From a virus: a DNA stretch of 64,000 nt. Shown here piece after piece: positions 26,693-60,902 of the stretch. The position numbers and the translations under genes were made by a program. Position 1 is the first letter of the stretch; each line of letters opens with the position of its first letter. Location: the IMG/VR virus record IMGVR_UViG_3300042516_003452, positions 20,493 to 84,492 of that record; one strand, given 5' to 3'. The notes beneath the pieces are model-generated. The model ran no database searches. It saw nothing but the letters and a program-made list of their open reading frames with translations, and was not told where the DNA came from.

Positions 26693-26920
26693 GTGACCAA
26701 CACCATCGCCACCGTCCGTCGTATCGACTGCGTGGACATCACCAAGATGTCACACGAGGAGATCTTCGACATGTGTGGCGTACCAACCCGGCAAGAAGCT
26801 GGCGACAACGTCATGCTTCAGGTCCTCGACCTGCTTGAGCACGGACGTAGCCAGGTACTTACTGCCGAACACCTCCAGGTCATCAAGTCCTACGTGGACG
26901 AGATGCTGGAGACCAACTGA
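26693..26920 (+). CDS. Early hypothetical protein
   Basis: 75 residues from a GTG start with GGAG seven nt upstream. Segments DITKMSHEEIFDMCGVPTRQ and QVLTAEHLQVIKSYVDEML suggest two or three helices. The stop runs straight into a family D RNA element. No family recognised. Confidence 0.6.
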   Translation: MTNTIATVRRIDCVDITKMSHEEIFDMCGVPTRQEAGDNVMLQVLDLLEHGRSQVLTAEHLQVIKSYVDEMLETN

Positions 26921-26967
26921 TCCGTTAAAGCGGGCGGCAGGGTGCAAACCCCTGCCCAGTTATTGCC
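26919..26967 (+). ncRNA. Family D structured intercistronic element, copy 1
   Basis: Begins within the TGA stop. Short hairpin CCG-TTAAAG-CGG, then GGCAGGG-TGCAAAC-CCCTGCC, then CAGTTATTGCC. Copy 2 at 27085-27133 has the same order with compensatory changes in the second stem and an invariant TGCAAAC loop. Confidence 0.55.
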
Positions 26968-27005: not shown

Positions 27006-27086
27006 GTGCACTTCACCACCTACGAATCCGTCGCACTCATCACGATCTTCATCGTGAGTTGCGTAATCGGATACGTAACCGACTGA
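27006..27086 (+). CDS. 26-residue membrane peptide
   Basis: Starts with GTG preceded by AGGAG at a 6-nt spacing. The peptide is MHFTTYESVALITIFIVSC followed by VIGYVTD: one hydrophobic helix. The clean Shine-Dalgarno and placement between two copies of a structured element support it. Function unknown. Confidence 0.45.
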   Translation: MHFTTYESVALITIFIVSCVIGYVTD

Positions 27087-27133
27087 TCCGTCTAAGCGGG
27101 TGACCAGGTGCAAACCCTGGTCCAGTCATTGCC
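27085..27133 (+). ncRNA. Family D structured intercistronic element, copy 2
   Basis: Starts in the stop codon at 27084-27086. CCG-TCTAAG-CGG, then GACCAGG-TGCAAAC-CCTGGTC, then CAGTCATTGCC. Compared with copy 1, four stem positions changed on both sides while loop and tail are kept. Confidence 0.55.
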
Positions 27134-52455: not shown

Positions 52456-52644
52456 ATGGAATCAAAACCAGCATGCACCATCGAGTTGAACATCAATGCT
52501 CTCCGCATGCTGTACAACATCATTAAAGAAGCACACGAAAAATATCCCCCTGACAAAACGGATACACCGGAGATGGAGATGTTGACTCACATGAAGTCAA
52601 AGCTGTATGCCTGCATGATGGAGTATTTGTTTCAAGAGAACTAA
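52456..52644 (+). CDS. Small helical protein
   Basis: 62 residues: CTIELNINALRMLYNIIKEA, PEMEMLTHMKSKLYACMMEY. Begins directly after the previous stop. Overlaps the HNH gene on the other strand by 122 nt. Confidence 0.5.
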   Translation: MESKPACTIELNINALRMLYNIIKEAHEKYPPDKTDTPEMEMLTHMKSKLYACMMEYLFQEN

Positions 52645-52900
52645 CTTTTTGTTCCCAGTGTTCTAGGCGGTGGCAGTTGCAGCATAACGGAATACATTTG
52701 TTAATTTCCTCCTCAACCCGCTTCCAGGCGTAGCCATGGTTCACCATACTGGAGATGTTGTTATCCTTATCTCCTACGTGGTGAAACTCTAGAACACGGT
52801 GATCATCCAACCCACACTTCTTGCATTGCAAAGTCTGCTTGTACTCCAGCAGCTTCTTTCGATTCTTATTGATACGTTCCTTGGATTGACTCCAGGGCAT
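52523..52900 (-). CDS. HNH endonuclease
   Basis: 125 residues. CKKCGLDDHRVLEFHHVGDK, AWKRVEEEINKCIPLCCNCH and RLEH match the small HNH family common in cyanophages (CxxCG...LxFHHvxDK...ExxKCxxLCxNCHRxxH). The catalytic domain covers residues 24-82. The last ~40 residues run antisense to 52456-52644 and are probably not conserved. Likely a homing nuclease near tRNA-Pro. Confidence 0.8.
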   Translation of the reverse strand: MPWSQSKERINKNRKKLLEYKQTLQCKKCGLDDHRVLEFHHVGDKDNNISSMVNHGYAWKRVEEEINKCIPLCCNCHRLEHWEQKVSSLETNTPSCRHTALTSCESTSPSPVYPFCQGDIFRVLL

Positions 52901-52953: not shown

Positions 52954-53025
52954 TCGGAGATGTAGGGATCGAACCTACGACCCTCTGCTCCCAAAGCAGA
53001 TGCGCTACCGCTGCGCTAATCCCCG
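52954..53025 (-). tRNA. tRNA-Pro (anticodon UGG)
   Basis: Acceptor CGGGGAT/ATCTCCG (one G-U pair), D-arm GCGC..GCGC, anticodon stem TCTGC/GCAGA with loop TTTGGGA (anticodon TGG), T-arm GTAGG-TTCGATC-CCTAC, discriminator A. No CCA is encoded, unlike the tRNA-Leu. Flanked by two HNH genes. Confidence 0.95.
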
Positions 53026-53103
53026 TAAAGTAGAGGCCTCTTTCCAGACTGTCTGCCTGGCGAGTACCTCATGAGCCCCATCGGAAAGAGAGGGGGAACT
53101 CCA
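53026..53103 (-). other. Structured spacer between tRNA-Pro and HNH gene
   Basis: 78 nt with a long-range CTCTTTCC/GGAAAGAG pairing enclosing CAGAC-T-GTCTG and CTCATGAG. Could be a tRNA-precursor leader or part of the mobile HNH unit. No ORF and no recognisable ribozyme core. Confidence 0.35.
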
Positions 53104-53655
53104 TTATTCTACAGTTTCATTTGGAGTTTTCCAAAAGTAATCATCACATTCACCAAGGCGACCCCATTTTTCTTCCCGATAATCAATATCCTTATTCAAA
53201 AAATCAATAGCATTCTTTAATGTTTGAAGATTATCTTTTGCATGTCCAAGCATTGTGTTGCAACTGTGACACAAGAGTCCCCTGACTTTGCCTGTTTCGT
53301 GACAATGATCTACGCAAAATGTTTTCTTTGGGCTAGGACTGTTTGTTTTACAGATAGCGCAACAACCTTTTTGAAAATCAAGAATTTGATTGTATCTGCC
53401 TTTCGGTAGTCCATATGAACGCAGGCGATCAAGATCGTTAGCGTGTTCTAGATTGTTTTTGCGCCATCTATTGTAATTTTCTTGATGGCGCTTTTTGTTC
53501 TTTCTTGCCCATTCCCGACTGTACTCATTTGTACAAGCACGGCACCAACTATTCAATCCATCTTTGTTTTTCTTTGCTTTGTTAAAAGCGTCTCTAGATT
53601 TAATCGCTAGGCATTTGGTGCATTTTTTCGTTGGGAGTTTGCCAGAAATAGTCAT
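53104..53655 (-). CDS. Endonuclease VII-like HNH homing nuclease carrying a copied C-terminus
   Basis: 183 residues. An N-terminal zinc ribbon (KKCTKCLAIKSRDAFNK, WCRACTNEY) is followed by an endonuclease VII-type domain: CCAICKTN, FCVDHCHETGKVRGLLCHSC and NTMLGHAKDN. The last ~20 residues, KWGRLGECDDYFWKTPNE, are unrelated to the nuclease and copy the end of the neighbouring 229-residue protein. Its start lies inside that protein's last codons. This indicates insertion into the 3' end of the neighbour with duplication of the target's end. Confidence 0.85.
   Translation of the reverse strand: MTISGKLPTKKCTKCLAIKSRDAFNKAKKNKDGLNSWCRACTNEYSREWARKNKKRHQENYNRWRKNNLEHANDLDRLRSYGLPKGRYNQILDFQKGCCAICKTNSPSPKKTFCVDHCHETGKVRGLLCHSCNTMLGHAKDNLQTLKNAIDFLNKDIDYREEKWGRLGECDDYFWKTPNETVE
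53120..53170 (-). repeat. Duplicated 3' end of the target gene, distal copy
   Basis: 51 nt aligning without gaps to 53631-53681 (about 40 of 51 positions identical by hand count). It encodes W-G-R-L-G-E-C-D-D-Y-F-W-K-T-P-N in the frame of the HNH gene. Confidence 0.8.
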
Positions 53656-54289
53656 CGCACTCGCCTAAGCGCCCCCATTTTAACGTTCTTTCGGAGTCAA
53701 AGTATCGAGTTGATACCTTAAAGTCTGGCGTTTTCAGCTCATTGTTGGTGAGCGATGGATCAACCATTCGACAACGATTGTTGGGATAAGCGCCAATTTG
53801 ACCGTTGTCCAAAGCCACAATGTTGTGGGACTTATGCTCGTCAGGAAATTCCGCAAAGTAAAAATCTGGTTCGTTCCTGTGAGGATGGTAGTTGTCAACC
53901 GTAAATAAGTATGTGCCCTTCATTACACCAGCACTACGTGTCATAACTTGAAATTCCATGTTGAAGATCAAGTTCTTCTCAATGACCGTAAGCCCGTGAT
54001 CGAACCCATTCCAGAACTGCAGGTCAGTTAGCTCCAGGTCAGGGGTGGGTACTTGAGGTTTGTCAGGGTAATCCGGATCCCAAGCAAGGAATGCACTGAT
54101 GGGAAGCTTGTCGTAAAGAGCGCCATACTCAGTAAGGTACGTCTCAAAATATAAAGCTCGCCCTGTTAAAGACTTACATGTAACCCAGTAGCCAGGGGTG
54201 TACTCACCATGACCATCTCTCAGGTCACGCAGGTATTCGCGCCGTACCCAAACTTTGACTGGCGGTACATTGGCTACAAGAGTTGTCAC
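53600..54289 (-). CDS. Hypothetical protein, insertion target of the HNH gene
   Basis: 229 residues from a GTG at 54289. KVWVRREYLRDLRDGHGEYT, ALYFETYLTEYGALYDKLP, a beta-rich core, and the end LKWGRLGECDDYFWQTPNE followed by eight residues read from HNH sequence. The ancestral end was probably TPNETVE, now attached to the nuclease. A structured region with a terminator precedes the start. No family recognised. Confidence 0.6.
   Translation of the reverse strand: MTTLVANVPPVKVWVRREYLRDLRDGHGEYTPGYWVTCKSLTGRALYFETYLTEYGALYDKLPISAFLAWDPDYPDKPQVPTPDLELTDLQFWNGFDHGLTVIEKNLIFNMEFQVMTRSAGVMKGTYLFTVDNYHPHRNEPDFYFAEFPDEHKSHNIVALDNGQIGAYPNNRCRMVDPSLTNNELKTPDFKVSTRYFDSERTLKWGRLGECDDYFWQTPNEKMHQMPSD
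53631..53681 (-). repeat. Duplicated 3' end of the target gene, proximal copy
   Basis: Counterpart of 53120-53170, in the frame of the 229-residue gene. Several differences fall at third codon positions, so both copies have been kept as protein. Confidence 0.8.
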
Positions 54290-54415: not shown

Positions 54416-54619
54416 TCAGGATTTAGTGTCGCGATAGCGTCGGGCAGCACGACCTGCTTTCTTTGCTTTCTCAGTGTTTGGTACGAACTGCTTGCCTTCA
54501 CGACTGGCAGCGCGTTTCTTTTGATCCGTCTCCTGACGTTCTTCTTTTGACAATGAGGCCCAAGCCTTTTCAGGTAGGTAACGCTTGGTATATCCTTTTT
54601 GTATAGCTTTGTCTGCCAT
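54416..54619 (-). CDS. Small basic protein (RYLPEKAW family)
   Basis: 67 residues: KRYLPEKAWASLSKEERQET, then Lys/Arg-rich KAKKAGRAARRYRDT. I recall the pattern R-Y-L-P-x-x-A-W-x-x-L-S from small proteins beside DUF5872-type genes in phages and giant viruses. Possibly DNA-binding. Abuts the next gene. Confidence 0.55.
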   Translation of the reverse strand: MADKAIQKGYTKRYLPEKAWASLSKEERQETDQKKRAASREGKQFVPNTEKAKKAGRAARRYRDTKS

Positions 54620-54906
54620 TACTTACTCTCTTTATATTTCTTGGCGGCGGCTTTAGCTTTGCCACGTTTTTCATATTCGTCCTTTGTCATCCACTTCTCT
54701 TTGCCCCACTTCTCTAAAGACTTCTGTTTTTCTCCTTTGCCACCTTTATATCCACCACCTGCTTCTTTGTATTCCTGTGCAACCAGCTGAGCTTTACGTG
54801 CGCTCCACTGACCAGGCTTACCGCCCTTGGATCCAGCCATCACGCGATCTTTGATGCGTTCGCGTAACTCTGGTTTTGTATACTTATTCGTCTCCTGAGA
54901 CATCAA
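54619..54906 (-). CDS. DUF5872-like basic protein
   Basis: 95 residues. ELRERIKDRVMAGSKGGKPG, QWSARKAQLVAQEYKEAGGG and SLEKWGKEKW match a family (DUF5872, from memory) shared by phages and giant viruses. Very Lys/Gly-rich, likely nucleic-acid-binding. A TAAAATAATAGAAGA motif 15 nt upstream suggests late expression. Confidence 0.65.
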   Translation of the reverse strand: MMSQETNKYTKPELRERIKDRVMAGSKGGKPGQWSARKAQLVAQEYKEAGGGYKGGKGEKQKSLEKWGKEKWMTKDEYEKRGKAKAAAKKYKESK

Positions 54907-60483: not shown

Positions 60484-60902
60484 AAGTAACGAATAGGGCG
60501 AGTTCCAGCCAGTGGGAAGTTGGGGCCACTGATGGGGAAATTAGGTCCGCTGATGGGAAAATTTGGACCTCGTACTCCAATACCAGTTGAAGAACCAATG
60601 CCAATCCCAGTAGAACGACCAATACCAATTCCGGTGGAACTGCCGATACCAATGCCGTTGTTTGTGGGAGAAGGTTGTGGTGTAGTTGTTCCCGCAGTAG
60701 GAGTAGTGCGAGTAGTAGGAGTAGTAGGAGTAGTAGGAGTAGTGCGAGTAGTAGGAGTAGTAGGAGTAGTAGGCGTTGTTCTTGTGGTGGGTGTTGCTGC
60801 TTTTGCTGTTTTTGCTGTTTTTGTATAAGCAGAACGTGCTGCAGATTCACCAGACTTTGCAGGTTTTGCAGACTTTGCAGAGGCTTGTTTTTTAGCTTTC
60901 AT
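60480..60902 (-). CDS. Low-complexity repeat protein
   Basis: 140 residues built from repeats: Lys/Ala-rich start, (PTTPTTPTTR)n-type Thr/Pro repeats, GIGIGSST repeats and three G-P-N-F-P-(I/L) units. Probably an extended linker or fibre-like virion protein, length-variable by slippage. On the minus strand, convergent with the exonuclease gene (4-nt overlap). Confidence 0.55.
   Translation of the reverse strand: MKAKKQASAKSAKPAKSGESAARSAYTKTAKTAKAATPTTRTTPTTPTTPTTRTTPTTPTTPTTRTTPTAGTTTPQPSPTNNGIGIGSSTGIGIGRSTGIGIGSSTGIGVRGPNFPISGPNFPISGPNFPLAGTRPIRYF
60700..60775. repeat. GTAGTAGGA-type minisatellite
   Basis: Near-perfect tandem repetition of GTAGTAGGAGTAGTG-like units (plus strand), encoding the Thr/Pro tract of the overlapping protein. 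Units are multiples of three, so copy changes keep the frame. Confidence 0.7.

Follow-up and report, generated by a model that had tools for sequence, protein, structure and literature searches.

A probable homing-endonuclease cassette that carries a replacement gene end in an S-EIV1-like cyanophage

Genes that carry a foreign end together with an endonuclease have been described as the mobile ORF gene hybrids of fungal mitochondria, namely for atp6 of Allomyces macrogynus and for atp6, atp9, cox2, and nad3 of Glomus (PMC3630166). In these hybrids the inserted C-terminus is foreign and in phase with the gene, and the native C-terminus lies downstream and is closer to uninserted relatives (PMC3630166). 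In phages, the free-standing mob and seg endonuclease genes of T4 overlap the upstream gene and use its transcript, and mobA and mobE split genes instead (PMC2988022). A replacement end of the invaded gene was not found to be mentioned in this review of the mob and seg genes (PMC2988022), and no phage example of a replacement gene end was found in the literature searched, which largely excluded subscription journals. Homing endonucleases with the Endo VII motif (DHHRN) were established by F-CphI of the cyanophage S-PM2, which adjoins an intron-containing psbA gene, and the intron gives protection (collaborative homing) (PMC6083498).

The DNA analyzed here (the window, 64,000 nucleotides) belongs to an IMG/VR virus record of 84,492 bases from an S-EIV1-like lake cyanophage. 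The gene under study, called the host gene in the following, encodes a protein of 229 aa (53600-54289, minus strand) of the phrog_3704 family (E 4e-97). In viral contigs 99 relatives were found, and there were matches in 113 phage records, and the closest phage-record match of the protein was Synechococcus phage S-EIV1 (85%). Relatives in phage records are annotated as PurM or ferredoxin, yet there was no Pfam match, and the annotation looks doubtful. A single KWGRLG-YFW motif was present at the corresponding position in 77 of the 78 relatives that could be read to their ends; two further relatives, the sequences of which are cut before the gene end, were left out of this count. Eleven residues were invariant in an alignment of 30 sequences (K204, W205, G206, R207, L208, G209, Y214, F215, W216, T218, and E221), and the tail that follows the motif in uninserted relatives was variable, with 0 to about 80 residues. 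An AlphaFold2 model based on the 30-row alignment had a mean pLDDT of 51 and was unusable. A reading made earlier from the sequence alone had predicted that the intact gene ends with GECDDYFWKTPNE-TVE, and such endings do occur in uninserted relatives, e.g., L006 ends with GEQDDYFWKTPNETVE before the stop codon and L008 with NESVE. Uninserted relatives without this ending would have refuted the sequence-only reading; the ending motif was present, and thus this refutation failed.

The 3'-end of the host gene overlaps with a gene for an Endo VII-type (HNH, DHHRN motif) nuclease of 183 aa (53104-53655, minus strand; PF02945, E 6e-26), which is presumed to be a homing endonuclease. As the earlier reading had stated, it starts within the last host codons; the ATG is in the +1 frame, and the two open reading frames overlap by 56 nt. 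The catalytic residues D116, H117, H119, R125, and N133 are all intact, as are the zinc CxxC pairs at 99 and 129, and thus the nuclease has the residues expected for the Endo VII-motif (DHHRN) family. It shares the catalytic motif and a cyanophage host with F-CphI, and the overlap with an upstream gene with the T4 mob and seg genes. The GC content of the nuclease core was 38%, versus 48% for the window. The nuclease was present in two carriers and absent from 77 uninserted relatives at the same site. The only other carrier was L001 (IMGVR_UViG_3300045740_000123), which has the HNH gene and a second copy of the motif; no further carrier was detected when IMG/VR was searched with a DNA probe for the junction and with the HNH protein. 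An intein was dropped as an explanation, because the nuclease frame differs from the frame of the host gene. A group I intron or another described RNA family was not detected at the insert with Rfam at the gathering threshold, and the only Rfam matches in the whole window at this threshold were two tRNAs.

At the other end of the host gene, an HNH gene was observed that overlaps the start by about 35 nt in the uninserted locus L038 (3601-4035), and also in L033 and L037. Nucleases are thus attracted to both ends of this gene.

The C-terminus of the nuclease had been read as a copy of the end of its target, and the comparison of the two 51-nt segments confirmed this. The upstream segment, copy A (53631-53681, minus strand), encodes the C-terminal motif KWGRLGECDDYFWQTPNE of the host protein and contains the nuclease start in the +1 frame, while the downstream segment, copy B (53120-53170, minus strand), is read as the C-terminal tail of the nuclease. 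They are identical at 40 of the 51 nt, and the ungapped repeat reaches 56 nt with 79% identity (53115-53170 and 53626-53681). When the host protein was compared with its own record by tblastn, copy B was the only second place (E 9e-10), so that the resemblance of A and B is not due to chance, and this explanation was dropped. Over 54 nt the copies differ at 12 positions, 11 of which are in codons that keep the amino acid, in agreement with the silent differences noted before; the remaining one leads to an exchange of Q to K. Both the ATG of the nuclease and an SD-like AGGCGAG lie inside copy A, and thus A doubles as host C-terminus and nuclease leader. A paralogous tandem gene was not considered further, because the shared stretch comprises only about 20 residues. 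An att-type repeat of an integrase was also considered and dropped, without a specific search.

Slippage or microhomology repair could also yield a repeat, and both carriers are metagenome assemblies, so a simple local duplication or an assembly chimera beside an unrelated nuclease insertion, without any homing, had to be considered. This can hardly be maintained, because the junctions are identical in two independent assemblies, and because the divergence of A and B and their origin from different allele groups show that they are not a recent tandem copy.

The uninserted relatives were used to infer which of the two copies is foreign. Between about codons 142 and 180 the body of the host gene in the window is nearly identical to the uninserted loci L002 and L008, and it is still close to them until about codon 196. 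The identity breaks between YFD and SERTL, and the part beyond the break, the putatively imported 3'-part of the gene (53600-53696, minus strand; the break point near 53696 is approximate), is similar to L003/L004. Copy A is identical to L001 at 50 of the 51 positions, to L003/L004 at 45, and to L002/L008 at 38 positions, while 48 of the 51 positions of copy B are identical to L002 and also to L008. At the 12 sites that distinguish A and B, L002 and L008 each agree with B at 11 sites and with A at one site, L017 agrees with B at 11 sites and with A at none, and L003/L004 agree with A at seven and with B at four sites. In the window the tail is followed by the stop codon, 4 nt, and the native 3'-flank of the host gene, GTTCCCCCTCTCTTTCCGATGGGGC (53075-53099, minus strand), as in the uninserted L006. 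The tail of L001 runs into TAATAAATAAGTACCCCCTCTCTTTCC, for which L028 and L037 are nearest. Copy B and the L001 tail enter two different native 3'-flanks, and the native spacing is kept in both cases.

Because A is common to both carriers and the tails lie on different native flanks, A together with the HNH gene is the mobile unit, and the B-like ends of L002 and L008 as well as the native 3'-flank indicate that B and the L001 tail are native ends left behind. Judged from the sequences alone, A was thus imported and B is native, and a second phage has the unit next to another native end. The proposed displacement of the true 3'-end onto the nuclease was therefore borne out by the divergence and by the native flank. 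In one point the earlier reading had to be corrected: the foreign, recoded copy is the upstream A, which travels with the nuclease.

The reverse polarity would mean that A is native and that the nuclease arrived with tail B from another allele. A direct repeat by itself is symmetric, and the divergence between the tails of the window and L001 (43 of 51 nt identical) resembles that of the 3'-part of the nuclease. This polarity is nevertheless improbable, because the nearest uninserted relatives of the gene body end B-like and not A-like, A is the copy common to both carriers, the nuclease starts inside A, and a constant A with variable tails is already seen in the two carriers. The tail divergence alone cannot separate the two polarities, because the divergence of the carriers rises along the nuclease. 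The synonymous difference between the window and L001 was 0.54 for codons 1-100 of the host gene, 0.28 for codons 101-203, and 0.11 in A, and in the nuclease it was 0.32 for codons 13-60, 0.55 for codons 61-110, 0.78 for codons 111-162, and 0.87 in the tail. The minimum at the junction is what would be expected from repair tracts centred there, which is an inference.

All eight differences between the tails of the window and L001 are silent. This would also be compatible with a tail that is a working part of the nuclease under selection, e.g., for DNA binding, and that resembles the host gene only as a by-product of its acquisition. Such a role is unlikely, because HNH relatives lack the tail, the same kind of silent differences is seen between uninserted alleles, and the two tails stem from different native ends. 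With HNH homologues from elsewhere the alignment stops at about residue 153-164, and a tail that is normal for such homologues, which would have refuted the earlier reading, was therefore absent. Most of the tail divergence probably predates the insertion, because the silent changes are like those between uninserted alleles and the native flanks are different. Silent tail divergence alone was thus not accepted as proof that the nuclease tail is under selection, and the selection that had been suggested from the retained coding sense of B is not needed.

The locus is very likely a homing-endonuclease cassette of the free-standing type, in an S-EIV1-like cyanophage, and A and the Endo VII-type nuclease are the mobile parts; cutting, homing, and protection are inferred. 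The mobile unit would consist of a foreign, synonymously diverged 3'-end of the host gene (A) and a nuclease gene that starts inside it. The targets of the nuclease would be uninserted alleles, cut close to the conserved KWGRLG motif, a site that is inferred. Repair from the carrier would then replace the end of the recipient gene by A, so that the host protein would stay complete, and the recipient's own 3'-end (B) would stay behind downstream of the nuclease gene and extend its reading frame by a disposable tail. The divergence of A and B at the DNA level may be large enough for both sides to be poor targets, and the recoded end would keep the protein and may escape cutting, which is also inferred. 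Two similar cassettes in the same phage group, described below, support the homing cassette. Caution is required because only two carriers are known, both from metagenome assemblies, and because there are no cleavage, homing, or expression data. In addition, L003/L004, the closest source of A among the loci examined, agree with A at no more than seven of the 12 informative sites.

The comparison with the fungal mobile ORF gene hybrids revealed that the endonuclease ORF is again near the 3'-end of the gene, with a foreign end in phase upstream of it and the native end displaced downstream, and this criterion of the hybrids is met. Also in the window the native end is closer to uninserted relatives (for L002/L008, 48 of 51 with B versus 38 of 51 with A). 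The criterion of a mitochondrial genome with a LAGLIDADG or GIY-YIG nuclease is not met, i.e., the fungal examples have such nucleases in organelles, whereas the nuclease of the window is of the Endo VII type and the genome is that of a tailed phage. A further difference is that the window nuclease starts inside the replacement end and that the native end is read as its tail. In contrast to F-CphI, for which the intron gives protection, the protection of the window cassette would come from the diverged gene end. The anatomy of the window (phage, Endo VII type, dual-coding junction) is thus a new variant of a known arrangement, the fungal gene hybrids.

In a self-similarity scan of all loci collected, duplicated gene ends were associated with just two families of nucleases; the other hits looked low-complexity or paralogous and were discarded. 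The second family is found in a DUF5872-like gene, of which the window has an uninterrupted version (54619-54906, minus strand; empty site within 54791-54822). In relatives this gene is the host of a second cassette, with a 215-aa HNH nuclease (loci of the cassette: L001:2640-3680, L131-L188, L190, and L193-L220). The native 5'-end is cut off before the HNH gene in the carriers, and the HNH gene is followed by a replacement 5'-end (MAEDKSKYTKPDLRERIKNKVMREGRGGKPGEWS in many), a gap, and the native 3'-part (ARKAQ...). The cut-off native 5'-ends of L001 and L033/L038 have no start codon, and a second intact DUF5872-like copy was not found in 14 carrier records, which may be incomplete.

The gap element was detected in 49 contigs by a pattern scan, and 41 distinct gap alleles were present over all loci collected; a scan of a genome contigs database with the bypass pattern yielded no match. 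The length from the take-off UCG to the landing codon was 20 nt (2 alleles), 21 nt (12), 24 nt (14), 25 nt (7), 26 nt (5), or 30 nt (1). The alleles cover all three frames, and from these lengths it follows that the 3'-part is out of frame in 14 of the 41. The gap opens with UAG, and UCG-UAG is present in all alleles by design of the search. At the take-off site a UAGCC-GNRA-GGCUA hairpin (-7 kcal/mol) was found in 40 of the 41 alleles, with the loops GUAA, GUGA, GGGA, GCAA, and GAAA. Most of the gap start and the hairpin was already a requirement of the search pattern; carriers found independently via the HNH protein share both, except that L175 is an exception for the hairpin. The landing codon was UCG in 39 alleles and UCU in two.

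In the T4 gene 60, bypassing involves matched codons, a stop after the take-off codon, and a take-off hairpin, and a homing endonuclease is linked to it (PMC5009743). The second cassette has all four features. In contrast to T4 gene 60, which has GGA and a gap of 50 nt, it has UCG and 20-30 nt, it carries a replacement 5'-end, and the length and frame of the gap differ among the alleles. Based on the matched UCG codons, the stop after take-off, and the hairpin, the gap is probably a site of T4 gene 60-like ribosome bypass, for which there are no protein data. This absence of protein data, and GTG or TTG codons shortly past the gap in some alleles, leave room for re-initiation, or for a post-gap part that is not translated at all. 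Several results make both rather doubtful. First, pN/pS for the first nine codons past the gap was 0.14 for the out-of-frame and 0.17 for the in-frame alleles, and the 3'-frame of 47-62 codons is kept in all 41 alleles. Second, the predominance of UCG at the landing site has no counterpart at the uninserted sites, where the matching serine codon is UCG in none of 29 cases. Third, the GNRA-loop hairpin is nearly always present, and eight alleles with enough upstream sequence retain the gap without an HNH motif detectable by a simple motif search. Part of the selection signal past the gap could predate the insertion; this does not hold for the variable frame of the gap. HNH remnants were observed in at least L188 and L190.

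The last example is the gene for tRNA-Pro(TGG), which is intact in the window (52954-53025, minus strand) downstream of the nuclease gene and represents the empty site of a possible third cassette. In L001 (5310-5862) and L028 (near 5155) this gene is interrupted within its anticodon loop. Inside the L001 insert there is a diverged gene that resembles tRNA-Pro(UGG), with an Rfam tRNA score of 37.5 bits, and after it an HNH gene. The diverged tRNA was missed by ARAGORN and by a faster Rfam search, and it has unusual D and T arms. It may be a substitute tRNA that belongs to a homing cassette, and its function is uncertain. Just beyond the tRNA-Pro gene the window also contains a small HNH gene (52523-52900, minus strand; phrog_2255, E 1e-21), an 85-aa version of which was found in L001.

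Two additional features of the window were observed. Two 56-nt repeats (26912-26967 and 27078-27133) are 80% identical, lie 166 nt apart, and contain a GGCAGGG..CCCTGCC-like stem, possibly a pair of structured RNAs. In addition, an array of 9-nt repeats (AGTAGTAGG-like) is located at 60666-60800.

The three examples make it likely that homing cassettes form a general class in S-EIV1-like cyanophages and that each one replaces exactly what it breaks, i.e., a 3'-end, a 5'-end together with a mobile bypass element, or a tRNA. With a diverged copy of the part that it displaces, a homing nuclease can thereby reside in a conserved phage gene that stays intact, and neither an intron nor an intein is needed. 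The strategy of the replacement end, described for fungal mitochondria, would now extend to tailed phages, where the nuclease is from another family. The second cassette, if its interpretation is true, would provide a family of naturally occurring bypass sites of the T4 gene 60 type, in which nature has varied the gap length and the frame. For a long time T4 gene 60 has served as the standard case of bypassing in phages, and a variable-gap family of 41 alleles would make the rules of bypassing and its origin from homing elements directly testable.
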